The translations under genes and the position numbers were made by a program. The notes under the pieces are model-generated. The model was not told the DNA's origin and did not search any database. It saw only the letters and a program-made list of their open reading frames with translations. 64,000 nucleotides of DNA. Origin: Streptomyces nitrosporeus (GTDB taxonomy: Bacteria; Actinomycetota; Actinomycetes; Streptomycetales; Streptomycetaceae). The stretch covers positions 4,998,001 through 5,062,000 of the forward strand of contig NZ_CP023702.1 of the NCBI RefSeq assembly GCF_008704555.1. The letters are read 5' to 3'. Below, piece after piece: positions 44,937-64,000 of the stretch. Every line of letters begins with the position of its first letter. The stretch's first letter is position 1.

Positions 44937-46418
44937 ATGCGCAAGACGCTCAGAGGGGTTCTCTCGCTCGCGGTGCTCATCGGCACGGTGAGTGCGACGG
45001 GAGCCTCGGCCGGTGCGGCCACCGCCGCACAGCCGGCCACCACGTGGAGCGGCTCGACCAGCAGCAGCGAGAGCGGCGCCGAGGACATCAAGGACCGCAT
45101 CCTGGCCATCCCGGGAATGAGCCTGATCGAGGAGAAGCCCTACCCCGGGTACCGCTTCTTCGTCCTGGAGTACACACAGCCCGTCGACCACAAGAAGCCG
45201 TCCAAGGGCACCTTCCAGCAGCGCATCACCCTGCTGCACAAGGATGTCAGCCGCCCCACCGTCTTCTTCACCAGTGGCTACAACGTCTCGGTCAACCCGA
45301 GCCGCAGTGAGCCGACGCAGATCGTCGACGGTAACCAGGTCTCCCTGGAGTACCGTTTCTTCACCCCGTCCCGCCCGGAGCCGGCCGACTGGTCGAAGCT
45401 GGACATCTGGCAGGCGGCCAGCGACCAGCACCGCGTGTACAAGGCGCTGAAGAAGATCTACTCCAAGAACTGGCTGAGCACCGGCGGTTCCAAGGGCGGG
45501 ATGACCGCCACCTACTTCGAGCGCTTCTACCCCGAGGACATGGACGGCGTCGTCGCCTATGTCGCGCCCAACGACGTGGTGAACGACGAGGACTCGGCGT
45601 ACGACCGGTTCTTCGCCCGCGTCGGCACGAAGGAGTGCCGCGACCGGCTGGGCGGGGTCCAGCGCGAGGCGCTCGTCCGCCGTGACGCGCTGGAGAAGAA
45701 GTACGCGGCCTACGCCGCCGAGAACAAGCTCACCTTCACCACCGTCGGCAACCTCGACAGGGCGTACGAGGCCGTGGTGATGGACTACGTCTGGGCGTTC
45801 TGGCAGTACAGCCTGCTGGCCGACTGCGAGGCCATCCCGGCCGACGCCCGCAAGGCCACCGACCAGGAGATCTGGGACTCCGTCGACGGCATCTCCGGCT
45901 TCTCGGCCTACGCCGACCAGGGGCTCGCGCAGTACACGCCGTACTACTACCAGGCGGGCACCCAGCTCGGTTCGCCCGACATCCGGCAGCCCTGGCTGGG
46001 CAACCTCAGCCGTTACGGCTACCAGCCGCCGCGCAACTTCGTGCCGCGCTCCATCCCGATGAAGTTCGACCGCTCCGCGATGCGGGACGTGGACCGCTGG
46101 GTCAGGAACAACGCCCGGCAGATGATGTACGTCTACGGCGAGAACGACCCGTGGGGCGCCGAACCGTTCCGCCTCGGCCGGGGTGCCAGGGACAGCTACG
46201 TCTACACCGTCCCCGGCGGCAACCACGGCTCCAAGGTCGCCGGACTCGTCGCCGGTGAGAAGGCGAAGGCCACCGCCGCCATCCTGCGGTGGGCGGGCGT
46301 CGCCCCGGCCGCCGTACAGGCCGACCCGGCCAAGGCCGAGCCGCTCGCGAAGTTCGACGCGCGCCTCGACAAGAGGGACGCGGAGCTGGAGCGGAACCAG
46401 GGCACCCTGCGCCCGTGA
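44937..46418 (+). CDS. Secreted S37-family tripeptidyl aminopeptidase
   Basis: 493 residues. A Sec signal peptide (about residues 1-30, ending ASAGAATAA) precedes the mature enzyme. Family S37 (PS-10) landmarks: PTVFFTSGYNVSVNPSRSEP, nucleophile serine in WLSTGGSKGGMTATYF, catalytic Asp in YGENDPWGAEPF and catalytic His in PGGNHGSK. These enzymes release tripeptides, often after proline, from peptides outside the mycelium, and feed secreted-protein turnover. GGGGAGGG fixes ATG 44937. Monocistronic, ending in a 20-bp perfect hairpin. Confidence 0.93.
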   Translation: MRKTLRGVLSLAVLIGTVSATGASAGAATAAQPATTWSGSTSSSESGAEDIKDRILAIPGMSLIEEKPYPGYRFFVLEYTQPVDHKKPSKGTFQQRITLLHKDVSRPTVFFTSGYNVSVNPSRSEPTQIVDGNQVSLEYRFFTPSRPEPADWSKLDIWQAASDQHRVYKALKKIYSKNWLSTGGSKGGMTATYFERFYPEDMDGVVAYVAPNDVVNDEDSAYDRFFARVGTKECRDRLGGVQREALVRRDALEKKYAAYAAENKLTFTTVGNLDRAYEAVVMDYVWAFWQYSLLADCEAIPADARKATDQEIWDSVDGISGFSAYADQGLAQYTPYYYQAGTQLGSPDIRQPWLGNLSRYGYQPPRNFVPRSIPMKFDRSAMRDVDRWVRNNARQMMYVYGENDPWGAEPFRLGRGARDSYVYTVPGGNHGSKVAGLVAGEKAKATAAILRWAGVAPAAVQADPAKAEPLAKFDARLDKRDAELERNQGTLRP

Positions 46419-46422
46419 GGCA

Positions 46423-46469
46423 CACCGCCCCCGGTCCGTCCGCGCTTCACGGACGGACCGGGGGCGGTG
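46423..46469. terminator. Bidirectional terminator, 20-bp perfect stem
   Basis: 46423-46442 pairs exactly with 46450-46469 across a 7-nt loop. It begins 4 nt after the S37 peptidase stop and lies 19 nt from the GH3 stop on the other strand. Confidence 0.85.
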
Positions 46470-52600: not shown

Positions 52601-53194
52601 TCAGCCCGTGCCCCGCAGCAGCCGCTCCAGGCTTCCGAGCAGTTGCAGCGCGTCCTCGCGGCGCTCGTCGTCCAGGGGGCCGGCGGCCGGGGCGCCCGGG
52701 AAGGCGGGCGGCCGGGAGACCACCCGCAGGGCGGCCGCCGCCTGCCGGGCGAACATCGCCAGCAGATCCAGCTCGCCCAGCTGCGACCGTGCCTGGGGCG
52801 AGGGGTCCAGCACCTCCAGCACCCCCAGCACCCGGGAGTCGCTGATCAGCGGGGCCGCCATCAACGCGTCCGGTACGTAGCGGGTGGACTCCGCCAGTGA
52901 GCGGTCGAAGGCGGTGTCGTGGCTGAGGTCGTCGACGACCATCGGCTCGCCCGAGGTCGCCACCCAGCCGGCGATACCGCGCCCCGCGGGGAACCGGCGG
53001 CCCACCAGGAACTCCTCGCCCTCGCCGGAGACCGCCTGGAAGACCAGCTCGCCCGCCTCCTCGTCGAGCAGGCAGACCGAACTCGCCGCCGCCCCGAAGA
53101 TCGCACGGGCCACGTCGACGACCGACTGGAGCAGTTCGCGCCGGGCGACGTCGGCCGGGGCGAGAGCGAGGGTGACGTCAGTTCTCGGAGTCAT
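52601..53194 (-). CDS. GAF-domain protein
   Basis: 197 residues. One GAF domain covers nearly all: VCLLDEEAGELVFQAVSGEG, FPAGRGIAGWVATSGEPMVV and the VLEVLDPSPQARSQLGELD end. It lacks a kinase or output domain, so it is a stand-alone ligand sensor or a partner of the neighbouring cyclase/ATPase. It overlaps the S8 peptidase gene by 17 bp and thus belongs to a three-gene unit. Confidence 0.87.
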   Translation of the reverse strand: MTPRTDVTLALAPADVARRELLQSVVDVARAIFGAAASSVCLLDEEAGELVFQAVSGEGEEFLVGRRFPAGRGIAGWVATSGEPMVVDDLSHDTAFDRSLAESTRYVPDALMAAPLISDSRVLGVLEVLDPSPQARSQLGELDLLAMFARQAAAALRVVSRPPAFPGAPAAGPLDDERREDALQLLGSLERLLRGTG

Positions 53195-54062
53195 CACGGA
53201 TATCTCCTGCCGCTGGGGAGGGACGCGGACCGGCGTGCACATTGGCCGCGGAGAGATAGAGGGCGTTCTTGAGCTGGAAGGCCGTCATCCTGGGGTGCCC
53301 GGACAGCACCCGGGCGCAGAGCCCGGCGACGTACGGGGTGGCGAAGCTGTTCCCGGTCGTGCGGATCGTCCTGCCGCCCAGCCAGGGCACCGACACGTTC
53401 TGCCCCGGCCCGAAGAACTCCACCGGGGGGTCCGGGTTGTACAGGTGCAGTTCGGGGTCGTCCTCCTGGTGGCTGCCCACCGAGATCACCGAGGCGAACC
53501 GCCAGGGGAAGCTCTCCACCGGGGTGTTGTGCGCCGACGCCACGAGCACCGTACGGCCGAAGTAGGCGCGGTCGGCGAGGCTGTGCAGCTCCTCGGCGAA
53601 CCGGGTCCTGGTGGTCGACAGACTGAGGTTCACCACGTCGAAGCGCTGCTCCACGGCCCACCGCAGCCCCGCCATCAGCACGTCGCCCGTCCCGGAGAAA
53701 CGCTCCCCGAGGACCCGGACACTGTGGATCTCGCAGTCCGGCGCGGTACGGCGGATGATGCCCGCGCACGCGGTGCCGTGCCCGCAGGTGTCCCCGGTGG
53801 TGGTCGGCTCGACCGTGATCGTGCCGCTGGTCCCGTCCTTGACCACCACCCAGGAGCCGGCCACCTCGCCGACCAGCGGATGGTCGCGTTCCACCCCCGA
53901 ATCCACCACACACACCCGCACACCGCGCCCCCGGGCGTGCGGCGCGGGACGGCCGCCCGCCGGTCCCGGGTCCGCGGGCACCGGCACGTCGTCCGGTCCC
54001 CGGCCCCGCAGACTCCAGGTCAGGCCCTGCCCCGGCGCCGTACCCGTCACGGTTCCGCCCAT
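53178..54062 (-). CDS. Cytosolic S8-family (subtilisin-like) serine peptidase
   Basis: 294 residues. The triad is complete: Asp in VCVVDSGVERDH, His in TCGHGTACAGI and Ser in GNSFATPYVAG; oxyanion Asn is in SAHNTPVES. No signal peptide, propeptide or membrane helix is seen, so the enzyme should act inside the cell. Its start lies 3 nt from the cyclase stop and its end overlaps the GAF gene. The nearby RiPP genes make leader-peptide removal one possible job, but regulated cleavage within the signalling unit is equally possible. Confidence 0.9.
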   Translation of the reverse strand: MGGTVTGTAPGQGLTWSLRGRGPDDVPVPADPGPAGGRPAPHARGRGVRVCVVDSGVERDHPLVGEVAGSWVVVKDGTSGTITVEPTTTGDTCGHGTACAGIIRRTAPDCEIHSVRVLGERFSGTGDVLMAGLRWAVEQRFDVVNLSLSTTRTRFAEELHSLADRAYFGRTVLVASAHNTPVESFPWRFASVISVGSHQEDDPELHLYNPDPPVEFFGPGQNVSVPWLGGRTIRTTGNSFATPYVAGLCARVLSGHPRMTAFQLKNALYLSAANVHAGPRPSPAAGDIRDDSEN

Positions 54063-54065
54063 CGG

Positions 54066-57000
54066 TCAGCTCCTCTCCGTCGTGGTCGCCATGGCCTGCT
54101 CCGGCAGCAGACCGGCCGCCCGGCGGACCCCGGGCAGATGGCCCTTGCCCGCGAAGTACTCCCCGGCGGTGCGCGCCCGGGCCAGTGCCTCCGCCCGCCG
54201 CCCCAGCAGCGCCAGCGTGCGGGCCCGGTCCAGCTCGGCCGTCGCCTGGACCAGCGGGGAGTCGGTCAGCAGGGACGCCCGGACCGCGCGGTCGGCGTGC
54301 GCCCCGGCCTCGGCGGACCTGCCGTCCGCGGCGGCCAGCCGGCCCCGCATCCCCTCCAGGTCCACCGCGTCCGCGTGGCTCAGATCCACCGGGTCGCCGA
54401 TGCCGCCGAGCCAGGCGGCGGCCCTCTCCGGCCGGTCCTCGTCCAGCTCGATCCGGGCCGCGTCCAGTGCCACCGCCGTCCGCATCCCCACCGCACCGGC
54501 CCGCCGGGCCGCCGCGTCGGCGCGCCCGAGCAGTTCCAGCGCCGGGCCGCTACGGCCCGACAGCGACTCCACCGCGGCCCGGAACACCGGCAGGAAGACC
54601 TCCGCCTCGGCGAACCGGAGCTTTTGGGCCAGCGCCTCGGCCTCGGACAGGCAGGCGTGGGCCCGGCCGGGCCGGTCGTCGAGCGCGTACAGCACGGCCA
54701 GCGGGCAGTTCAGGGTCAGCCGGACCGTCGGGCGGCCGTGGCCGTGCGCCTCCAGCAGGGCACGGCAGCGGGCCACCGCCTCCGGCACCGGCAGCGGCCC
54801 GCGCCACAGGGAGATGCCGATGGCCCCCAGCGCCCCGGCGCGCTCGGGCTCGGCCCCGGCCAGCACCGCCTGCTCCAGGGCCCGTGCCTGGTCGCGTTCC
54901 GCCTCCTCGTGCCGCCCGGCCTGCTGGAGGCGCTGGGCGAGCCGCAGATGGGCGCGGGCCAGGCCCACCGCGTCCCCGGCCGCCTCGAAGACCGGCAGCA
55001 CCGCGCGGGCCGTGGCGGCGAGACCGGGCCCCGGGCCGCCGGGGTCCAGCACCACCAGGGCCAGCCGCGCGTGGGCGGCCTCCACCGGCGCGGACTCCAG
55101 GTCCCGTACGCGCCGCAGCAGCCGGGCCCCGCCCTCGGTATCCCCGAGCGCGACACGGACCTCACCGAGCCGGCGCAGCGAACCCGCGTCCTCGGGGTCC
55201 AGAGCGGAGGCCCGCTCCAGCAGGCTCTCGGCCCAGGACAGGTCGGAGCGGGCGGCGGCCTGGGCCCCGGCCCGGCCGAGCGCCCGTGCCGCCCGGACGC
55301 GCAGCCGCCCGGTCAGGTCGTCGAGCAGTCCCAGCTCGGCGCGGAAGCGGTAGGCGCGCTCCAGATGGCCGCCGACGGCGCCGTCCCCGGCCCGCAGCAC
55401 GCTGGGCAGCTCCGCCGCCCAGGCGTGGCGGTCCGCCTTGGCACGCTTGGACAGCGAGTCGTAGGTCACCTCGTGGACCAGGCCGCTGCTGAAGCGGTAC
55501 CCCGAGAGCTCCTGCGGCCGCGGCGGCACCGGCGGTACCGGCGGTTCCGGTGTCCCTGAGGCCCCCTGCGGTCGCGGGGCCCCTGGGGTTCCCAGGTCTC
55601 CCGGGGCTCCTGGAGGCCCCGGGGCTCCTGGGGGTCGCGGGGCCTCCGGGCCCCTGGGCGGCGCCCACTCGACCAGGCGCCGCCGGCTCAGTGCCGCCAG
55701 GGTCTCCTCGACCCGCCGCAGGTGCGGTCCACGGCCGGCCGGTGAGGCGGCCCCGCCGGGGGGCGTGCGGTGCTCGGCGTACCGGGCGGCGTCCTCCAGC
55801 AGTACCAGTTCCGCCGCGGTGAACTCCCGGCCGATCACGGCGGCCAGATCCACCAGGGTGCGTTCCGTCCTGGCCAGCGCCCCGAGGCGGGCACCCAGCA
55901 GCGCCTGCAGGGTGGGCGGCAGACCGGCCGCCGTGCCACCGGCCCCCGCCCCGTCGCCCCGGTCCGTGACCAGCAGCTGCTCCAGATAGAGCGGATTGCC
56001 CTCCGCGCGGGCCAGCAGCCGTTCGTCGACCGGCGCGGTACGTCCGTCGAGCCGGGCCAGACGCGAGGCGAGCAGGGCGGCCTGCTTTGGGGGCAGCCCG
56101 GTGAGCTGGAGGCAGTCCGCGTTCCCGGCCGACCCGTCCGGGCGGCCCACACAGAGCACCAGCACCCCCGCGGGCCCCGGATGCTCCGTCAGCCGCTCCA
56201 GGGTGCGCGTGAGCAGAGGCGCCGCCGCGTGCGCGTCGTCCAGCACCAGCACGACCGGCCGCTCCCGGGCGGCCCTGGCCAGCACCGTCGTCAGGGCGGC
56301 GCACATGTCCTCGAAGGAGGCGTTCGGCGTCCCGTCGTACAGCAGCCCCGCCGAGAGCAGGGCCATCGCGTCGTCGGCCGCCTCCCCGGTCCCGGCCGCC
56401 TCCCCGGTCCCGGGCTCGGATCCGGTCCCGGGCATGGATCCGGACCCTGGAATGGACCCGGACCCGGACCCGGACATGGTTCCGCTTCCGGCCCCGTGGC
56501 CCCCGCCGTCCTCGCCGGCCCGGCCGCTCCCGTCGTCCTCCGTACGGGGGCCGGCCGCGCGCACGGCCGAGGACGGCAGGGCGCGCAGCGCGTCGGCGAG
56601 CGGGGTGAGTGTTCCCTGGTCCCCGTGGTCGCGGCAGCGCCCGGCCCCGTAGGAGAGTGCGCCCGAGGCGGACCGGCGCGCCAGCCACTCACGTACCAGC
56701 CGGGTCTTCCCGGTGCCCGCCTCCCCGGTGATCCGGAGCAGTCCCGCGCCCCCGTCCCCGACGGTCTTCGCCAACGCCGCGTCCAGGGCGCGCTGTTCAC
56801 CCTCACGCCCGACGAAGGGGACGTCGAAGCGGCGCATCAGCGCCGGGTCGTCCGCGCCCAGCGCGATCAGCCGGTAGGCGTCCACACGGTCCTGCTTGCC
56901 CTTGAGGAGGAGCGGCCCGGTGGGTTCCGCCGACACCGTCGGCCCGGCGGCCAGCAGGGTTTCCGGTCCGATGAGGATCTCGCCGGCGGCGGCGTTCTGC

Positions 57001-57518
57001 TCCAGCCGGGCGGCGATGTTGACGGTCTCACCCGACACCAGGGCCTGACGGGCCGTCGCGTCGCCACCGGCCACCACCTGGCCGGTGTTGACCCCGATCC
57101 GGACCGCCAGCCGGACCCCGAGCGTGGCGTGCAGCTCCTCGTTGAGCCCGGCCAGCGCCTCCCGCATGGCGAGCGCCGCGGCCAGCGCGCGCCGGGCGTC
57201 GTCCTCGCGGACCACGGGGACCCCGAACACCGCCATCACGGCGTCGCCGATGAACTTCTCCGGGGTGCCCCCGTGGGCGGTGATCCGGCCGCTCATCGCC
57301 TCGAAGTACCGCAGGGTCACCGTGCGCAGGGTCTCCGGGTCCAGCACCCCCGACAACGCGGTCGACCCGACGAGATCGCAGAAGAGCACCGTCACCGGCT
57401 TGCGCTCGTCCTCGACGGGGGCGGGGACGGCCGCGGGGGCCCCGGCGCACGGGGCGCCGCAGGACATGCAGAACCGGGCCTCGGGCGGCAGGTCCTGACG
57501 GCATGAGGAACAGGTCAT
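54066..57518 (-). CDS. Zinc-ribbon/class III adenylate-guanylate cyclase/AAA ATPase/TPR protein
   Basis: 1150 residues. A CxxC...CxxC zinc ribbon (CSSCRQDL, FCMSCGAPC) opens the protein. The class III cyclase domain (about residues 45-215) keeps the metal aspartates (VLFCDLVGST; EKFIGDAVMAVFG) and the Asn/Arg pair (VNIAARLEQ), so it looks active. An AAA/NACHT-like ATPase follows: Walker A GEAGTGKTR near 265, Walker B VVLVLDDAHAAAP. The C-terminal half is TPR-like. Two collagen-like Gly/Pro-rich linkers are present. Such proteins integrate signals and make cNMP. The upstream frame extension into position 57932 is a shadow of another gene. Confidence 0.92.
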   Translation of the reverse strand: MTCSSCRQDLPPEARFCMSCGAPCAGAPAAVPAPVEDERKPVTVLFCDLVGSTALSGVLDPETLRTVTLRYFEAMSGRITAHGGTPEKFIGDAVMAVFGVPVVREDDARRALAAALAMREALAGLNEELHATLGVRLAVRIGVNTGQVVAGGDATARQALVSGETVNIAARLEQNAAAGEILIGPETLLAAGPTVSAEPTGPLLLKGKQDRVDAYRLIALGADDPALMRRFDVPFVGREGEQRALDAALAKTVGDGGAGLLRITGEAGTGKTRLVREWLARRSASGALSYGAGRCRDHGDQGTLTPLADALRALPSSAVRAAGPRTEDDGSGRAGEDGGGHGAGSGTMSGSGSGSIPGSGSMPGTGSEPGTGEAAGTGEAADDAMALLSAGLLYDGTPNASFEDMCAALTTVLARAARERPVVLVLDDAHAAAPLLTRTLERLTEHPGPAGVLVLCVGRPDGSAGNADCLQLTGLPPKQAALLASRLARLDGRTAPVDERLLARAEGNPLYLEQLLVTDRGDGAGAGGTAAGLPPTLQALLGARLGALARTERTLVDLAAVIGREFTAAELVLLEDAARYAEHRTPPGGAASPAGRGPHLRRVEETLAALSRRRLVEWAPPRGPEAPRPPGAPGPPGAPGDLGTPGAPRPQGASGTPEPPVPPVPPRPQELSGYRFSSGLVHEVTYDSLSKRAKADRHAWAAELPSVLRAGDGAVGGHLERAYRFRAELGLLDDLTGRLRVRAARALGRAGAQAAARSDLSWAESLLERASALDPEDAGSLRRLGEVRVALGDTEGGARLLRRVRDLESAPVEAAHARLALVVLDPGGPGPGLAATARAVLPVFEAAGDAVGLARAHLRLAQRLQQAGRHEEAERDQARALEQAVLAGAEPERAGALGAIGISLWRGPLPVPEAVARCRALLEAHGHGRPTVRLTLNCPLAVLYALDDRPGRAHACLSEAEALAQKLRFAEAEVFLPVFRAAVESLSGRSGPALELLGRADAAARRAGAVGMRTAVALDAARIELDEDRPERAAAWLGGIGDPVDLSHADAVDLEGMRGRLAAADGRSAEAGAHADRAVRASLLTDSPLVQATAELDRARTLALLGRRAEALARARTAGEYFAGKGHLPGVRRAAGLLPEQAMATTTERS

Positions 57519-57637: not shown

Positions 57638-57877
57638 TCAGAACAGGGCGCCGCCGGCTATCTCGCCGTGCGCCCGCACCTCGGGTTCGACCGCGTCCAG
57701 CCGGCTCTTGATGTCGAGCAGCACCGCCAGTTCCGCCGGGGTGAGTTCGCTGAGTACCTGACGCTGTTCCTCGCTGAGCAGATCGACGGGCAGGCCCGCC
57801 TCGTACAGCGCGGCGGACAGCTCGGCCGGGCCGCTGCCGCCGGGCTGCGGGGGTCCGCTGCCGGGTGGTCGGGTCAT
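57638..57877 (-). CDS. Small 'aroma-sacti cluster'-like protein
   Basis: 79 residues from ATG 57877, overlapping the redox-enzyme stop by 4 bp (ATGA). It begins with a Pro/Gly linker, then AALYEAGLPVDLLSEEQRQV and LSELTPAELAVLLDIKSRLD form helices, and the tail is EPEVRAHGEIAGGALF. The SPEQ/LxxLSxxE-type pattern and the ...RAH...GG.xF tail match, from memory, the NCBI 'aroma-sacti cluster domain'. It may be a precursor or a carrier for the radical SAM enzyme. It has no cysteine, so it cannot itself bear a sulphur-to-carbon (sactionine) link. Confidence 0.6.
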   Translation of the reverse strand: MTRPPGSGPPQPGGSGPAELSAALYEAGLPVDLLSEEQRQVLSELTPAELAVLLDIKSRLDAVEPEVRAHGEIAGGALF

Positions 57878-58752
57878 GGTGTGACTCCCATCGGTGAGGA
57901 GGGTCCGGCTCCCCGGAGCGACGGCGCCGCAACGGGGCGCCCGAGCCGGACGAACAGCCGGGTGAGCGCGTCGAGGGAGTGCATGGCGCTGACCGTCACG
58001 TCCGCCTCCTGGGCGCGGGTCAGCGGCAGCCGGTCCAGCAGCGTGTACAGCTCGTCGAGATGACCGGTGTCGAGCACCGCGTGCTCCCGTACGGTCCGCA
58101 GAGCGGTCTCGGGGAGGCCGGTCGCGGCGGTGATCCGGGACGTCAGGCCGGGTGCGGGGGCGTAGCCCTCCAGGACGGCGATGTACCCGAGCAGCGCGAC
58201 GGGGTGGTGGTGCTCGATCCAGTAGTACTGGGGGCCGGCGAGCGCGGCGACGGCCGGCGGGGGCATCGGCAGGAGCGCGTCCTCGCCCGCCGCACCGGCC
58301 GCGGCCAGGTCCTCCAGCAGCCAGGCGTCGTGCCCCTCCTCCTCCCGGATGTGCTCGGCCAGGTACCCGGCCAGCGGCCCGGCCACCGGGTCGCCGCAGG
58401 ACTCCAGCAGCAGCGCGCGCTCCCGGGCCCGCAGCATCAGGGGTACGGAGGCCCGCACCACCGCGTGCATGGCGCACAGATACGTGCGGTAGCGCGGCAG
58501 CAGGTCCTCCGGGCGCCACAGGCGGTCCATGGCCCCGCGCAGACCGCCGTCCAGCAGCCGCAGCGCCACCCGCAACCGGGCGGAGGCACGCGGCGGGGCG
58601 CTCGCCGGGGCGCCCGGGGGAGCGCCGCCCGTCGCGGCGCTCCCCGGTGACCTCCCCGGCGCCGCCTCCGGAGCGTTCCCCCGCGCGCCCACCGGCGCCT
58701 TCCCCGGCGCGCCCGCCCGCGCGTCCGCCTCCACGCCTGCCCACGCGTTCAC
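57874..58752 (-). CDS. Iron-containing redox enzyme of the haem-oxygenase-like oxidase family
   Basis: 292 residues from GTG 58752. A Gly/Ala-rich N-terminal stretch of about 60 residues precedes an all-helical domain. Candidate metal ligands are EHIREEEGHDAW, YYWIEHHHPVALLGY and HAVLDTGHLDELY. This fits the 'iron-containing redox enzyme' (HDO) family, whose members use a dinuclear iron centre for oxidation, decarboxylation or desaturation. The start overlaps the radical SAM stop by 4 bp (GTGA) and the end overlaps the small gene (ATGA), so all three are one translational unit. Confidence 0.85.
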   Translation of the reverse strand: MNAWAGVEADARAGAPGKAPVGARGNAPEAAPGRSPGSAATGGAPPGAPASAPPRASARLRVALRLLDGGLRGAMDRLWRPEDLLPRYRTYLCAMHAVVRASVPLMLRARERALLLESCGDPVAGPLAGYLAEHIREEEGHDAWLLEDLAAAGAAGEDALLPMPPPAVAALAGPQYYWIEHHHPVALLGYIAVLEGYAPAPGLTSRITAATGLPETALRTVREHAVLDTGHLDELYTLLDRLPLTRAQEADVTVSAMHSLDALTRLFVRLGRPVAAPSLRGAGPSSPMGVTP

Positions 58753-59837
58753 CGGGAGCCGCCCGGCACACCGTCCGGGGCGCCCGCCGCGACCAGCGGT
58801 GCGTACGCGGCGCAGCCGTGGCGCCGCACCACCCCCACCGCGCCCTCCGCGGCTCCCTGCCGGGCCGCGGCCAGGTCCAGCAGCGCACCGGCCGGTCCCG
58901 CCGCCACCGACCGGGCGTCGGCGGCCACCCGCGCGTCCCCGCCCAGTGACCGGCAGCCCTCGCAGTACCCGCCGGCGGCGGGGACGCCGGAGCGTGCGGC
59001 CAGATGGGCGGGGCCGACGGTACGGATCATGCGCAGTACCGGGGACTCCACCGCCCGGCGGCGTACGGCCGCCCAGTCGTCGGTGGCGATATGGCCCAGC
59101 CGCAGATGGGCGGGCGCGGGCCGCCGGTCCACGGTGTCCTGGTTGCAGCAGGCGAGCACCGTGCCGTCGAAGGCCACCACGGGCCAGGCGGCCATCGCGC
59201 ACGGCGACACCGCGTCCCCGGCCGGTCCGGTACGGGCGGGGGCGGCCCAGGAGGCCGCACGGCCGAACGCCCGCACCTCGTTCACCAGGGACGGCACCCG
59301 GCCGCCGAACTCCTCCTCGACGGCCCGGGTCACCTCCGCGAGATAGGGATCGTCCGCACCGGTGCCGGTGAGGTGGAAACTCACCGCGACCCCCAGCTCC
59401 CGGATCCGGTGCACGGCCCGGAAGACGTCCGCGCGCGGCACCTCCCGCTCGTGGTGGAGGTCGAGACTGGCGGAGAAGTGGTCCACTTCCCCGATCGCCC
59501 GCAGGAGAGGCGCGGGAATGTGCCGGGAACGGGCGAAGAACATGCCGCTGAGCAGGGCCGTACGCGATCCGGCCGCACGGGCCGCCGCGCTCAGCTCCCG
59601 TACGAGGCCGGGCAGCAGCAGCGGTTCACCACCGGTCAGCATGACCACGTCGGGCCGGTCCGTCCCGGTGAACGACCGGACGAAGCGCACCAGGCTTGCC
59701 GCTTCTGGTTCCTGACGTGCCGTCATGTTCGAGCCGGTCGAGCAGTGGGCGCACGTCAGGGGGCAGCGCCGGGTCAGGGAGAGCAGCAGGCCGGCGGCCG
59801 GGAAGGGCCGCCGGCCGACGAGTTCGCCGAGTTCCAT
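58749..59837 (-). CDS. Radical SAM protein with C-terminal cysteine motifs (RiPP-maturase-like)
   Basis: 362 residues from ATG 59837; GGAGG 9 nt upstream decides this start over ATG 59852. The radical SAM cluster motif is CPLTCAHC (Cys25, Cys29, Cys32); MLTGGEPLLLPG is the GGE segment that binds SAM. The C-terminal part has further cysteines (SPCAMAA, LACCNQD, YCEGCRS), suggesting a SPASM-like auxiliary cluster. Such enzymes make C-S, C-C or C-O bonds in peptides. Gene order radical SAM - iron oxidase - small protein, divergent from a lanthipeptide precursor, makes a RiPP maturase the leading interpretation. Confidence 0.9.
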   Translation of the reverse strand: MELGELVGRRPFPAAGLLLSLTRRCPLTCAHCSTGSNMTARQEPEAASLVRFVRSFTGTDRPDVVMLTGGEPLLLPGLVRELSAAARAAGSRTALLSGMFFARSRHIPAPLLRAIGEVDHFSASLDLHHEREVPRADVFRAVHRIRELGVAVSFHLTGTGADDPYLAEVTRAVEEEFGGRVPSLVNEVRAFGRAASWAAPARTGPAGDAVSPCAMAAWPVVAFDGTVLACCNQDTVDRRPAPAHLRLGHIATDDWAAVRRRAVESPVLRMIRTVGPAHLAARSGVPAAGGYCEGCRSLGGDARVAADARSVAAGPAGALLDLAAARQGAAEGAVGVVRRHGCAAYAPLVAAGAPDGVPGGSR

Positions 59838-60199
59838 GCGGGCCGCCTCCATCTCGGGACCGGGAGCGCGGGTACCGTGGGGGCCGCTTCCTGCGGACCC
59901 ACCGGCGTGCGCGGAAGTCTTCCCAGGGTGTGACCCGCCGGTTCGGCGGCGGTCCACCCGCGCTTCAAAAGCGGTATGGGCCCAGCTCGGCCGGGGTCAG
60001 GGCCCACCGCGGGGCCCGCCTGCCGGCGGTCACAACCCCGGTGGGCTGGGCCGATACCGGAGCCATACCGCCGCCGAAGCGTTCGCCAGGCCGGCCCTCC
60101 TAACTTTCTCGGCAACGGCAGGCAACAGCCCGCCGCACCGGAACCCCGGCACCTCAGGGCCCCCGGCACCAGCGCAGTGACGAGTGGACGGAGACCACC
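59838..60199. promoter_or_regulatory. Divergent control region between the two RiPP operons
   Basis: 362 bp without a gene. It carries a 15-bp inverted repeat with one mismatch (CGGTATGGGCCCAGC at 59972-59986; GCTGGGCCGATACCG at 60045-60059) and a third related half-site CCATACCGC at 60063-60071. A 5' GGAG precedes the precursor ATG. No clear -10/-35 was found. Confidence 0.5.
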
Positions 60200-60358
60200 A
60201 TGTCCGAGAACACCAAGCCCGCGGCCGACGACAACAACGAGACCGAGACCCCCGAGGTCGAGGCGCACTCCGTGCTGGACCTCCAGGAGACGGCCGTCGA
60301 CAAGGTCGTGGTCCCGGGCAGCTGTGTCAGCGTGATCAGCGTCGTCATGGAGAACTGA
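60200..60358 (+). CDS. Class III lanthipeptide-type precursor peptide
   Basis: 52 residues, too short for ordinary ORF calling, with GGAG 8 nt before ATG 60200. The acidic leader (many Glu/Asp/Asn) contains HSVLDLQET, matching the LxLQ recognition motif of class III precursors such as RamS (LFDLQ) and LabA. The C-terminal core is VVVPGSCVSVISVVMEN. It has one Cys (42) and Ser at 41, 44 and 47, unlike the usual Ser-x-x-Ser-x-Cys pattern because Cys comes first. The neighbouring LanKC and MFS genes fit this role. Confidence 0.8.
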   Translation: MSENTKPAADDNNETETPEVEAHSVLDLQETAVDKVVVPGSCVSVISVVMEN

Positions 60359-60374
60359 CCGGACGCACCGGGAC

Positions 60375-60408
60375 GGCGCCACGGAGGCCCACCTCCCGCC
60401 GTGGCGCC
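60375..60408 (+). terminator. First hairpin after the precursor gene
   Basis: Ten-bp stem GGCGCCACGG/CCGTGGCGCC (60375-60384 with 60399-60408), 17 nt downstream of the precursor stop. Confidence 0.55.
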
Positions 60409-60425
60409 CGGCCGGCCGGTGATGT

Positions 60426-60455
60426 GGGGCGGTTCCGTCACGGCGGAACCGCCCC
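60426..60455 (+). terminator. Second, stronger hairpin after the precursor gene
   Basis: Perfect 12-bp stem (60426-60437 with 60444-60455) and a 6-nt loop. With the previous hairpin it may cause partial termination so that the precursor is made in excess over MFS and LanKC. Confidence 0.65.
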
Positions 60456-60648
60456 GCCGTCGCTTCCGGCCCGACAGCCCGGCCCGACAGCCCGGCCCGG
60501 CCGAACGGTCCGGCCGGACGGCCCGGACCGACGCGGCCCACCCGGCCCGACCGCCCCTCGCAGTACCCCCGGGGACCCCGTCCCCGGCCGGCGGCCCGGA
60601 CCGGGCCGCGCCCTTCGTCACGGCCCCGACCGACACCGGGAGTTCACG

Positions 60649-61956
60649 ATGACCAAGCCGCTGCGCGACAACAGGGACTTCCGGCTGCTCTGGCTGAGCG
60701 GCCTCTTCGCGGTCCTGGGGGCGCAGATGAGCGCCCTCGCCCTTCCCCTGCTGGTACTCAAGGAGACCGGTTCCGCGGTGCAGGCCGGTGCCGTCGGAAC
60801 GGTGTCCGTGGGGGCCGTCCTGATCACCATGCTGCCCGGCGGGGTGATGGCGGACCGTGTCGAACGCCGCCGGCTGATGAGGCTGTGCGACGTCGGCAGC
60901 CTGACCGTCGTCACCGCTCTCACCGTGGCCGTCTGGTCCGGGCACGCCCCCATGCCGCTCGTCCTGCTCGTCGCCGCGGCGGGCGCGATCCTCAGCAGTA
61001 TCTACGGACCGGCCGTCTTCGGCCTGATGCGCGCGGTGGTCCCGGCCGACCAGATGGGCACCGCCACCGCACGCCTCCAGGCCCGCACCCACACGGCCCG
61101 GCTGGTCGGACCGCTCCTCGGGGGAGCCCTGTTCGGTATCCACCCGGCCCTGCCGTTCGCGGCCGAGGCGCTGGGCCTGCTGCTCTCGACCGTCTGCGTG
61201 ACCCTCGTACGCACCCGCTCCCGGGCGAGGAAGACGGCGGGCGCGGTGTTCAGCAGACGCGAACTGCTGGCGGGCCTGACGTTCCTGTGGAAGATCCCCT
61301 ACCTGCGGACGGTCCTCCTCGTCTTCGGCCTGGGCATGAACTTCGCGTTCGGGGCGCTCACCTTCACCGCGCTGACCGCGTTCTCCGAAGGGGGACGCTC
61401 CGGCGTCGGCGGCGGATTCGTCATCACCTGTGTCTCCGCCGGGGCGCTGGCCGGGGCACTGCTCGCGCCGAGGATCGGCCCCGACCGGCACTCCCGGGCC
61501 CTGATCCTCGCCACCTGCTGGGCCTGTGTGACGGCCGCCGGGGTGATGGCCTGGACCGAGCAGTCCCTGGTGGCCGGGATCATGTGCGCGCTCTGCATGT
61601 GCCTGTCGACGATCGCCAGCATCGGATTCCTCTCCAAGCTGCTGATCGTGACCCCGGACGAACGGGTGGGCCGGGTACAGAGCGCGGCGGGCTTCCTCTC
61701 CTCCATGGTCCAGCCGTTCGGCCCGCTGGCCGGCGGTGCCCTGCTGTCCGCCTTCGGCGCCCGCTGGGCCTTCGTCCTGACCGGCTGTGTGCTGGCGGGG
61801 TCCGCCCTGGTGGTCACCTTCGCCCCCTCGGCGCGGACCGTACCGGAACCGCACGACGACGCGGCGGAACCCTCCGGCCCGCCCGGGGCCGCCCCGCCCG
61901 GGGCCGGTGCCGACCGCGCGGCGGCCGGCGCGCCCCGCGCCGACCTCGGGGACTGA
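60649..61956 (+). CDS. MFS transporter, probable lanthipeptide exporter
   Basis: 435 residues from ATG 60649 with GGGAG 9 nt upstream. Twelve membrane helices; motif A after helix 2 reads GGVMADRVERRRLMRL. The second half contains FGLGMNFAFGALTFTALTAF and PDERVGRVQSAAGFLSSM. The C-terminal about 45 residues are a Pro/Ala/Glu tail. It fits the macrolide/drug-efflux MFS group. Lying between the precursor and LanKC genes, it probably exports or confers immunity to the product; ABC transporters are more usual in class III clusters. Confidence 0.9.
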   Translation: MTKPLRDNRDFRLLWLSGLFAVLGAQMSALALPLLVLKETGSAVQAGAVGTVSVGAVLITMLPGGVMADRVERRRLMRLCDVGSLTVVTALTVAVWSGHAPMPLVLLVAAAGAILSSIYGPAVFGLMRAVVPADQMGTATARLQARTHTARLVGPLLGGALFGIHPALPFAAEALGLLLSTVCVTLVRTRSRARKTAGAVFSRRELLAGLTFLWKIPYLRTVLLVFGLGMNFAFGALTFTALTAFSEGGRSGVGGGFVITCVSAGALAGALLAPRIGPDRHSRALILATCWACVTAAGVMAWTEQSLVAGIMCALCMCLSTIASIGFLSKLLIVTPDERVGRVQSAAGFLSSMVQPFGPLAGGALLSAFGARWAFVLTGCVLAGSALVVTFAPSARTVPEPHDDAAEPSGPPGAAPPGAGADRAAAGAPRADLGD

Positions 61957-62046
61957 TCCGCGGTCCGTGGCCCTCCGGGCCCCACCGCCCCACCGCCCCC
62001 GCCACCGTCCGTGCCCCGGGCGGGCCCCGGAAAGTCCGGAGAAGCC

Positions 62047-62091
62047 CCGAGAACTTCCGAGAACTTACGAGAACTTCCGAGAAGTTCCGAG
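62047..62091 (+). repeat. Four 10-bp tandem repeats before LanKC
   Basis: GAACTTCCGA, GAACTTACGA, GAACTTCCGA and GAAGTTCCGA occupy 62051-62090, each in helical phase. The fourth copy is the complement-like GAAGTTC, so it can also form a dyad with its neighbour. The array sits 16 nt upstream of the LanKC start. Confidence 0.85.
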
Positions 62092-62106
62092 CAGAGAGAG
62101 CCGAAC

Positions 62107-64000
62107 GTGCCAGGCATCCAGGAAATGCAGCTGTACTGCCTCGCCGACCGTACGTACTACGACACCCCGGACCGGCTGCCCGACGCGGAGTCCCGGTACC
62201 GGCTCGACACCGACCCGCCGCCCGAGGGATGGCGCCGCGAGGCCGTGGGACTGTGGACCTCGCTGGTGCCCGAGCACGCCGCACCGGCCGAACAGGGCTG
62301 GAAGATCCACGTGTCCGCCGTCCCCGGCGAGGCCGAGGCCACCCTGAGGGACACCGCCCGGATCTGCCTCCGCCACGGCGTACCGTTCAAGTTCCTGCGC
62401 AGCGAACGGGCGTTGCTGCTGATGGCGGACAAGTACATGAACCGCAGCGGGGCGGGCAAGTTCATCGCGGTCTACCCGCCCGACGAGACGGTGTTCCTGG
62501 CCCTGGCCGACGAACTCTCCCGGGCCCTGGCCGGGCGCAGCGGCCCCTACATCCTCAGCGACCTGCGGATCGGTGACGCACCGGTCCACACACGCTACGG
62601 GGCCTTCGTCCCCCGCTGGTGCACCGATGCCGAGGGCCGCCGGGTCCTCGCCCTGCGGGACCCCTCCGGGAAGCTGGTACCGGACGAACGCGGAGTGGTC
62701 TTCCGGGTGCCCGCGTGGGTCGAGGTGCCCGCGGCCCTGCGGCCGCACCTCGCGGCGCGCGCCGCCGCCCGCGACGACACCTTCCCCTACACGGTCACCA
62801 AGGCCCTCCAGTTCTCCAACGCGGGCGGGATCTACCTGGCCACCCACCGGGAGACGGGCCGGCGGGTGGTGCTGCGCGAGGCGCGTCCGCACTGCGGCCT
62901 CGACAGTGCGGGCGACGACGCCGTCACCCGTCTGCACCGCGAGTACCGGGCGCTGACCGCACTGGCCGGACTGGACTGCGTGCCCGAGGTCCACGGGGTA
63001 CGGACCGTCTGGGAGCACCACTTCCTGATCGAGGAGCACATCGAGGGGCACACCCTGCTGGAGGAGATCACCGCCCGCTTCTCCCTCGTACGCGGGGCGC
63101 GGACGGTGGAAGACCTCGCCCCCTACGTCGCCTGGGCCGACTCGGTGGTGGACGGGCTCGCCCGGGCACTGGAGGCGATCCACGCACGCGGACTGCGCTT
63201 CGGCGACCTGCACCCCTCCAACATCATCGTCCGGCCCGACGGACGCGTCGCCCTCGTCGACTTCGAGTACGCCACCGCGCTCGACGACGAGGACACCCCG
63301 CTGGCCGGGGCCCAGGGCCTCCAGGCACCCCCGGGGACCCCGGGGGCGGAGGCCGACGCCTACGCGTTGTGGGCGACCTGGCTCACCCTCCTGGTGCCGG
63401 TCACAGAGATGGCCGGACTGGAACGGGCGAAGGCCCTCACCCTGGAACGCTGGGCCCGGCGGCGCTACGGGCTGCCGGCCGACGCGGGCCCGCCCCGGCC
63501 CCGGCTGCTCGACGGCATCGACGCCTCACGGCGGCGCGAGGCCGGGGTGGCCGCCCTGTTCGAAGGGCCGGACGTGGACTGGGCGGGCATCCGTACCCGC
63601 CTGCTGTCCGGTATCCACGCCGGAGCCACCCCCGCACGGAAGGACCGCCTCTTCCCCGGCGCCCCGGGCCTCTTCGCCACCGGCGGGACGGACCTCGCCA
63701 ACGGGGCGGCCGGAGTCCTGTACGCCCTGCACCGGGTGGGCGCCCCCGTCCCCGGCGAGTGGACCGACTGGCTGGCGGCGGCGGCGCTCCGCAGGGACCC
63801 CGCCGGTGCGGGCGGGCTCTTCGACGGACTGCCGGGCACCGCCCTGGTGCTCACGCTCCTGGGCCGTACCGAGCAGGGACGGGAACTGTGGGACCGCGCC
63901 CTGTCCGCCGCCCCGCCCGTCTCGGCGGACCTGCTCACCGGGCGCGCGGGCATCGCGCTCGCCGCACTGCGGATGGCCCGGACCGGTGGAGCGGCCCCCG
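62107..64000 (+). CDS. Class III lanthipeptide synthetase (LanKC), truncated by the window end
   Basis: 631 codons are visible from GTG 62107 (ATG 62125 lacks spacing for its GGAA). The start MQLYCLADRTYYDTPDR is the class III hallmark (RamC/LabKC-like) and opens the lyase domain (to about residue 220). A kinase domain follows: glycine loop SNAGGIYLA, GDLHPSNIIV with Asp367, and DFE at 385 instead of DFG, as known for LanKC. The position usually occupied by the ATP lysine is Arg257 (VVLREARP). The cyclase-like domain begins near residue 525 (PGAPGLFATGGTDLANG) and is cut off. It should dehydrate and cyclise the adjacent precursor. Confidence 0.9.
   Translation, partial: MPGIQEMQLYCLADRTYYDTPDRLPDAESRYRLDTDPPPEGWRREAVGLWTSLVPEHAAPAEQGWKIHVSAVPGEAEATLRDTARICLRHGVPFKFLRSERALLLMADKYMNRSGAGKFIAVYPPDETVFLALADELSRALAGRSGPYILSDLRIGDAPVHTRYGAFVPRWCTDAEGRRVLALRDPSGKLVPDERGVVFRVPAWVEVPAALRPHLAARAAARDDTFPYTVTKALQFSNAGGIYLATHRETGRRVVLREARPHCGLDSAGDDAVTRLHREYRALTALAGLDCVPEVHGVRTVWEHHFLIEEHIEGHTLLEEITARFSLVRGARTVEDLAPYVAWADSVVDGLARALEAIHARGLRFGDLHPSNIIVRPDGRVALVDFEYATALDDEDTPLAGAQGLQAPPGTPGAEADAYALWATWLTLLVPVTEMAGLERAKALTLERWARRRYGLPADAGPPRPRLLDGIDASRRREAGVAALFEGPDVDWAGIRTRLLSGIHAGATPARKDRLFPGAPGLFATGGTDLANGAAGVLYALHRVGAPVPGEWTDWLAAAALRRDPAGAGGLFDGLPGTALVLTLLGRTEQGRELWDRALSAAPPVSADLLTGRAGIALAALRMARTGGAAP

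Follow-up and report, generated by a model that had tools for sequence, protein, structure and literature searches.

The window analysed here, a stretch of 64,000 nucleotides of Streptomyces nitrosporeus (assembly GCF_008704555.1, contig NZ_CP023702.1, positions 4,998,001 to 5,062,000; genome assembled as a single 7.58-Mb contig), ends in a locus that is probably composed of two back-to-back pathways for ribosomally synthesized and post-translationally modified peptides (RiPPs), run together through a regulator of the Streptomyces antibiotic regulatory protein (SARP) type and probably also through a shared S8 peptidase. The leftward arm, here called the cassette, is an operon of six genes reaching from 59837 down to 52601, which encode a radical S-adenosylmethionine (SAM) enzyme, a haem-oxygenase-like iron enzyme (HDO), the small protein AroS, a cyclase/AAA/TPR protein, the S8 peptidase and a GAF-domain protein. 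The rightward arm holds a putative lanthipeptide precursor gene, an exporter gene of the major facilitator superfamily (MFS) and the gene for the class III lanthionine synthetase LanKC. The genes and control elements are, in window numbering:

58749-59837, minus strand: radical SAM enzyme, 362 amino acids (PF04055, 49 bits, cut-off 29.5)
57874-58752, minus strand: HDO (PF14518, 41.3 bits, cut-off 28.9)
57638-57877, minus strand: AroS, candidate precursor of 79 amino acids ending in PEVRAH-GEIAGGALF (NF045560, 76.5 bits, cut-off 30)
54066-57518, minus strand: adenylate/guanylate cyclase-AAA-TPR protein, 1150 amino acids (PF00211, 83 bits; PF13191, 70.7 bits)
53178-54062, minus strand: subtilisin-like peptidase of family S8, which may be the leader protease of both arms (PF00082, 87.5 bits)
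52601-53194 (alternative start 53242), minus strand: GAF-domain protein, encoded at the end of the cassette
59838-60199: intergenic control region, exactly 362 bp, common to both arms
59961-59977, minus strand: direct repeat of 11-bp period towards the radical SAM gene, ATACCG N5 GAAGCG (half-sites 59972-59977 and 59961-59966)
60054-60081, plus strand: three half-sites facing the precursor gene, spaced at 11-bp steps, ATACCG N5 ATACCG N5 GAAGCG (starts 60054, 60065 and 60076)
60200-60358, plus strand: putative lanthipeptide precursor, 52 amino acids, with N-terminal PEVEAH, then LDLQ and a C-x-S-x2-S core
60649-61956, plus strand: MFS exporter (PF07690, 110 bits)
62125-64704, plus strand: LanKC, 859 amino acids, leaving the window at 64000, its end read from the genome
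64787-66727, minus strand, beyond the window: SARP gene facing LanKC (BTAD domain PF03704, 128 bits; NB-ARC domain)

An earlier annotation made from the letters of the window (the sequence-only reading) had described the divergent layout and the 362-bp control region, and all the elements it named were borne out, including four-base overlaps between the radical SAM and HDO genes (GTGA) and between the HDO and AroS genes (ATGA). Outside the span it covered lie the three further genes of the left operon (cyclase/AAA/TPR, S8 and GAF) and the SARP gene; extension of the window rightwards, which it had proposed, gave the end of LanKC and, next to it, the SARP gene. As to the product, it had left open whether both arms act on one molecule or on a pair of co-expressed peptides. 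Of these alternatives the computed evidence gives good support to the latter, namely through SARP-type repeats facing both ways, by co-inheritance of LanKC with the cassette, and by an EVxAH motif common to both precursor kinds. The idea of a single hybrid product is probably wrong.

Relatives of the radical SAM enzyme (E <= 1e-20) were found in 38 of 246 genomes of the same genus, the genome of the window included, and about 20 kb were taken around each of them. All six cassette genes are present in 36 of the 38 stretches; L045 is cut by a contig end and L069 lacks AroS. At 18 loci (group A) the genes for a precursor, an MFS protein and LanKC diverge from the radical SAM gene. The recurrence of both the cassette and the divergent LanKC arm confirms that their combination is a real arrangement and not a product of chance. 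Two further loci (L049 and L050) also carry LanKC, which brings the total to 20 of 38, so that the two arms do occur together in related genomes; the sequence-only reading had asked whether they ever do, and also whether the radical SAM arm has a separate precursor elsewhere. The answer is mixed, as a likely separate precursor, AroS, lies inside the locus and not elsewhere. In six loci (group B) the place of the group A arm is taken by genes for a small peptide, a glycosyltransferase, two DUF6895 proteins, a radical SAM/SPASM protein, an MFS protein and a prolyl oligopeptidase (POP); these families were searched in L051 and L055, and the other four loci were assigned by matching to these. In six more loci (group C) some of the group B genes lie on the opposite flank, beyond the GAF gene (6/6), and a description of group C as an empty slot, with the radical SAM and SARP genes about 0.5 kb apart, was withdrawn on that account; a swappable slot between the radical SAM promoter and the SARP gene is supported by groups A and B only. 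Neither LanKC nor the group B set was found in the six remaining loci of the 38. In total, a second RiPP arm adjoins the cassette at 32 of 38 loci, with LanKC in 20 and all or part of the radical SAM/SPASM-glycosyltransferase-POP set in 12. The GAF gene recurs downstream of the S8 gene in homologous loci, and some cassettes include a second radical SAM gene, which the cassette of the window lacks.

LanKC genes are generally common in the genus (at least 146 of the 246 genomes at E <= 1e-100, with the best three candidates per genome scored). Those at least 51% identical to the LanKC of the window (51-100%; at least 20 matches in at least 19 genomes) all lie beside cassettes among the matches listed, in which the next identities drop to 45% or less. 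In a sequence tree the cassette LanKCs appear as two distant clades, apart from every sampled non-cassette LanKC, the controls being best matches to the LanKC of the window, a choice that may have passed over second-clade members without a cassette. One clade is group A; the other contains L049, one LanKC of L050, L166, L171, L204 (Kitasatospora), and L207 and L224 (Actinoplanes), and its cassette loci include Kitasatospora, Actinoplanes and Planobispora. At locus L050 (genome G183, contig C166) a single cassette is surrounded by three LanKC genes and three differing small precursors.

AroS is a member of the aroma-sacti domain family NF045560, and the C-terminal residue of such proteins follows the enzyme pair. 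At 42 radical SAM/HDO loci all 47 aroma-sacti proteins end in Phe or Trp, with ten distinct six-residue AroS tails; at 19 loci without the pair one of 27 does so, and this exception belongs to a genome (G177; L136, L069) with a radical SAM/HDO pair some 20 kb off. Away from the pair the tails are DLKLL, DLKLV, ELKLV, VSVKVV, NVVC, NVLC or CxC sactipeptide-type cores. A later set fetched with the radical SAM profile, which had no part in forming the idea, gave a Phe/Trp tail in 31 of 32 cases, the lone exception being a 20-bit match to a repetitive precursor of Catenulispora. The Fisher p value for the tie between tail and pair, 1.8e-19 with one duplicate still included, is not a fair probability because the loci are related. 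RiPP precursors often occur as tandem genes, and tandem AroS genes are found in L163 and L218 (four each) and L214 (three), with tails differing among the copies. Bare AroS-rSAM1-rSAM2-HDO operons with the tail VGGFVW are present in two Alphaproteobacteria, Mesorhizobium temperatum and a Sphingorhabdus, and within these stretches the compact operons showed no matches for the cyclase, S8, GAF or LanKC proteins. AroS is therefore likely, as judged from these comparisons, to be the substrate and precursor of the radical SAM/HDO pathway. For these counts L138 was dropped as the same locus as L064, and L195, L205, L215 and L222 as contigs that, judged by their length, belong to loci already counted, whereas L137 was kept as a pair locus though a contig end cuts its radical SAM gene. 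Of a wider set of 80 loci the analysis covered the first 30; those left over match only in part, at 26-40% identity.

A role of AroS as sactipeptide precursor was rejected, as it contains no Cys and scores 25.9 bits against the StsA-related model NF045559 (cut-off 75). Conservation of the tail by codon counts was set aside because its 32 sequences had been picked by a pattern that contains the tail. In the alphaproteobacterial operons AroS is the first gene in M. temperatum (L216, 9650-12785) and the last in Sphingorhabdus sp. (L220, 9995-13079). At L131, L132, L133 and L174, aroma-sacti peptides ending in NVVC or NVLC are encoded divergently from an AroS ending in DLKLL, and adjoin a gene for a Cys-rich-ended protein of some 460-500 amino acids; these loci perhaps represent another RiPP type.

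SARP targets typically consist of direct repeats spaced at 11-bp intervals (PMC3367932, PMC10936776), and at the sequence level the locus has both a BTAD regulator and such repeats. The exact sequence ATACCG N5 ATACCG, on the plus strand and facing the precursor, is present at 16 of the 18 group A loci. With at most one mismatch, the repeat pattern occurs on the plus strand in all 18 group A and all six group B loci. The minus strand carries it in 14 of the 18 loci of group A, none of six in group B, four of six in group C and one of the six others. A relative of the SARP was detected in 29 of the 37 fetched stretches besides that of the window, the misses being mostly stretch ends or divergent loci. 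We infer that the SARP protein reads the repeats facing both ways and so joins the two arms, its binding being predicted from the sequence.

The junction in front of the AroS tail reads PEV(Q/R)AH, and EVEAH is found in an N-terminal extension ahead of LDLQ in the lanthipeptide precursors of all 18 group A loci. The EVxAH motif was absent at all 31 LanKC genes with a candidate precursor, out of 32 sampled at 30 cassette-free loci; many of these controls belong to a single, SapB-like type. Loci L204, L213 and L224 have the motif immediately before the core, and where AroS has the alternative junction EVEGQ, the adjoining small precursor has AVEGQ. Because EVxAH is common to both precursor kinds, a common protease is suggested, and the S8 peptidase of the cassette probably cuts both precursors at this motif. 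An AmyP-type S8 protease described in Bacillus, which acts on class III leaders, reportedly uses (T/S/A)EVE (PMC10885120); the S8 family and this motif resemble the peptidase of the window and its PEVE, a likeness by family and motif to a protease known from Bacillus. Among NCBIfam models the QhpE-type peptidase NF049966 matched best, yet below its cut-off (103 vs 165 bits).

In Catenulispora pinisilvae (L221, 9283-9777, minus strand) a repetitive open reading frame consists of units PEVIAH-SG(E/D)DTPWCGVNTGSAATEDD, with an EVxAH-type motif ahead of every unit. It resembles a multicore RiPP precursor, and both an AroS cassette and a radical SAM/SPASM-POP set lie next to it.

By its genes the right arm of the window is a class III lanthipeptide cluster, with a lanthionine or labionin product predicted. 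With the class III model NF038151 the part of LanKC that lies within the window, 625 residues, reaches 697 bits (cut-off 575), and the class IV model falls short (350 bits, cut-off 650). The LxLQ leader motif, as LDLQ, is found next to LanKC in the 52-residue precursor and in its group A homologues. The locus resembles other class III clusters, such as those of the SapB/RamS type, in its LanKC above the cut-off, the LxLQ motif and an adjoining exporter, and differs from them in the extra N-terminal extension with EVEAH. The core of the window precursor is SCVSVISVVMEN, and C-x-S-x2-S is shared by the listed group A precursors. It does not contain the labionin-type S-x2-S-x3-C, which PMC7268733 calls characteristic of class III cores and which is not class-defining. 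In 60200-60358 and its group A homologues the order is inverted, with the Cys preceding two Ser, and since the Cys stands ahead of both, an unusual ring topology is possible.

The radical SAM enzyme has the CX3CX2C cluster motif (C25, C29, C32) invariant in 21 sequences, as are C213, C230, C292 and C295. Among solved structures its model (pLDDT 89.6) best matches that of EpeE (8ai2; E 4.1e-12, TM score 0.64/0.71, 16% identity), which is also nearest by sequence profile, and it scores 31.1 bits with the EpeE/YydG epimerase model TIGR04078, far below the cut-off of 300. The enzyme is thus like the EpeE/YydG peptide epimerases in its predicted radical SAM fold, whereas substrate, partner enzyme and neighbours differ. 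In the HDO, E138, H141, E195 and H224 are invariant among 24 sequences and D228 and H231 are conserved at 90% or more; we take these six residues to be candidate metal ligands. The HDO model (pLDDT 84.7) has a haem-oxygenase-like fold matching 3dde and the decarboxylase UndA, and the protein weakly resembles MboA by profile. Family score, fold and candidate ligands place it in the haem-oxygenase-like diiron class, with metal binding predicted. It shares the fold and the conserved Glu/His/Asp residues with UndA, and by sequence with MboA, and differs from both in being only about 16-20% identical and in its pairing with a radical SAM enzyme and a ribosomal precursor. The structural matches are so distant that neither reaction can be named; as a guess, the radical SAM enzyme might epimerise or cross-link and the HDO might hydroxylate or oxidatively decarboxylate. 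The cyclase/AAA/TPR protein falls under the cut-off of the TOMM kinase/cyclase model TIGR03903 (106 vs 705.75 bits).

Taken as two pathways, the locus would function as follows. The cassette would make its own peptide from AroS, composed of a helical aroma-sacti leader, an EVxAH junction and a short core with an aliphatic-aromatic end (GEIAGGALF). The tail would be modified by the HDO together with the EpeE-like radical SAM enzyme and freed by the S8 peptidase, while regulation would fall to the cyclase/AAA/TPR, GAF and SARP proteins. The rightward arm would yield a class III lanthipeptide by means of its precursor, LanKC and the MFS exporter. The arms would be coupled by the SARP acting on the direct repeats facing both ways, and the S8 peptidase probably cuts AroS and the lanthipeptide precursor alike at EVxAH.

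Several observations weigh against this scheme. Locus L069 has the radical SAM and HDO genes and no adjoining AroS, the AroS profile was drawn mostly from aromatic-tailed members, the loci compared are kin and not independent, and family searches found no RiPP recognition element in the radical SAM protein. The repeat pattern, lacking on both strands in L049 and L050, was derived from the same sequences in which it was counted, and its background of 12 in 1605 other 420-bp windows and 45 in 3800 shuffles therefore gives rarity, not function. In group A the EVxAH motif precedes LDLQ, the wrong side for simple leader removal, and cleavage at that point would fail to remove the greater part of the class III leader. 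The motif is missing from two of the three lanthipeptide precursors of L050 and from the LxLQ precursors of L166 and L215, and EVxAH may be a leader motif of general occurrence in actinobacteria. Beside this last idea stands a small open reading frame of L070 (16909-17055, genome G186) with DVEGH and a C-terminal Cys, possibly a precursor of another RiPP. The GAF label was given by eye from the sequence.

A true hybrid, in which the radical SAM/HDO pair reads the MSEN..PEVEAH extension of the lanthipeptide precursor as AroS-like and LanKC reads LDLQ, giving one doubly modified peptide, was the first reading and was downgraded once the AroS tails had been compared; we now consider it improbable. 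It would explain why the extension is absent in the sampled control class III precursors and resembles the AroS junction, and why this LanKC lineage is found solely beside the cassette among the matches listed. The lanthipeptide core, however, has no terminal aromatic residue, extension-type motifs also occur in precursors at loci without the pair (AVEGQ in L131, DVVAH in L135), and a single product is not supported because a candidate precursor, AroS, lies in the same operon and accompanies the pair at the 42 loci of the first set, its Phe/Trp tail tracks the pair, and the pair occurs without LanKC at 18 of 38 loci and in alphaproteobacteria. We give as little chance to AroS being a helper, leader-binding or regulatory, with the enzymes acting on another substrate. 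AroS-like proteins ending in DLKLL or ELKLV do adjoin the cyclase/S8/GAF genes at loci without the enzyme pair and must have a role there without it, and the AGGALF tail is almost invariant, unlike many RiPP cores; yet the tail switches sharply with the enzyme pair, tandem AroS copies (L163, L214, L218) have different tails, and StsA-type sactipeptide precursors use the same domain as leader. Very improbable is a mere neighbourhood of two unrelated clusters, their adjacency being historical in one Streptomyces clade. Group A may stem from one joining event and LanKC is missing from 18 of 38 loci, but LanKC is co-inherited with the cassette at identities as low as 54-63%, cassettes also adjoin LanKCs of another, distant clade, including those of Kitasatospora, Actinoplanes and Planobispora, and the repeats are common to both arms.

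A more speculative proposal, which we regard as rather unlikely, is that the C-terminal aliphatic-aromatic end of AroS is cut out and remodelled by the radical SAM enzyme and the HDO into a conserved small-molecule signal, which the cyclase/AAA/TPR, GAF and SARP proteins sense to switch on the adjoining RiPP arm. It would explain a near-fixed tail beside exchangeable arms. Pyrroloquinoline quinone and mycofactocin are analogues, as small molecules cut from a peptide and remodelled; if true, a peptide-derived signal would be carried inside a peptide-antibiotic cluster. In mycofactocin formation a radical SAM enzyme acts on the C-terminal aliphatic-aromatic dipeptide of a short precursor, and since the enzymes differ from those of the window, the resemblance is a lead only.

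Among described systems, the StsA/StsB/StsC sactipeptide pathway of Actinomycetota (PMC12710340) is related through its StsA-type precursors, which share the aroma-sacti leader domain of AroS. In the Streptomyces loci L134, L135, L172 and L173 the cyclase/S8/GAF genes adjoin StsA-type precursors, and by family name these loci presumably correspond to the Sts cluster of that paper. Unlike StsA, AroS has no Cys, and the cassette of the window has an HDO and a different radical SAM enzyme. The open-licence literature returned nothing on 'aroma-sacti', on class III lanthipeptides with a radical SAM and a haem-oxygenase-like enzyme, or on precursor tails with a C-terminal aromatic residue; topics combining radical SAM and HDO gave polyoxin PolF and thioamidated RiPPs, whose available texts hold no description of this pair. 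To the sequence-only reading a class III cluster with such a pair was not known; the combination of LanKC with some radical SAM enzyme is not new, because radical SAM genes are reported in lanthipeptide clusters (PMC7268733).

With its terminal Phe/Trp, AroS is a candidate substrate for a radical SAM/HDO pair previously undescribed in that literature, by which the chemistry becomes directly testable. AroS-rSAM-HDO would constitute a little-studied RiPP family with a predicted substrate, present in actinomycetes and at least two alphaproteobacteria. A constant cassette travels with varying second RiPP pathways under seemingly one regulator, and such pairing would lead cluster-mining tools to false hybrid calls. 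Outside the locus, the sole tRNA gene of the window is a tRNA-Val (cac) at 46375-46445 on the minus strand.

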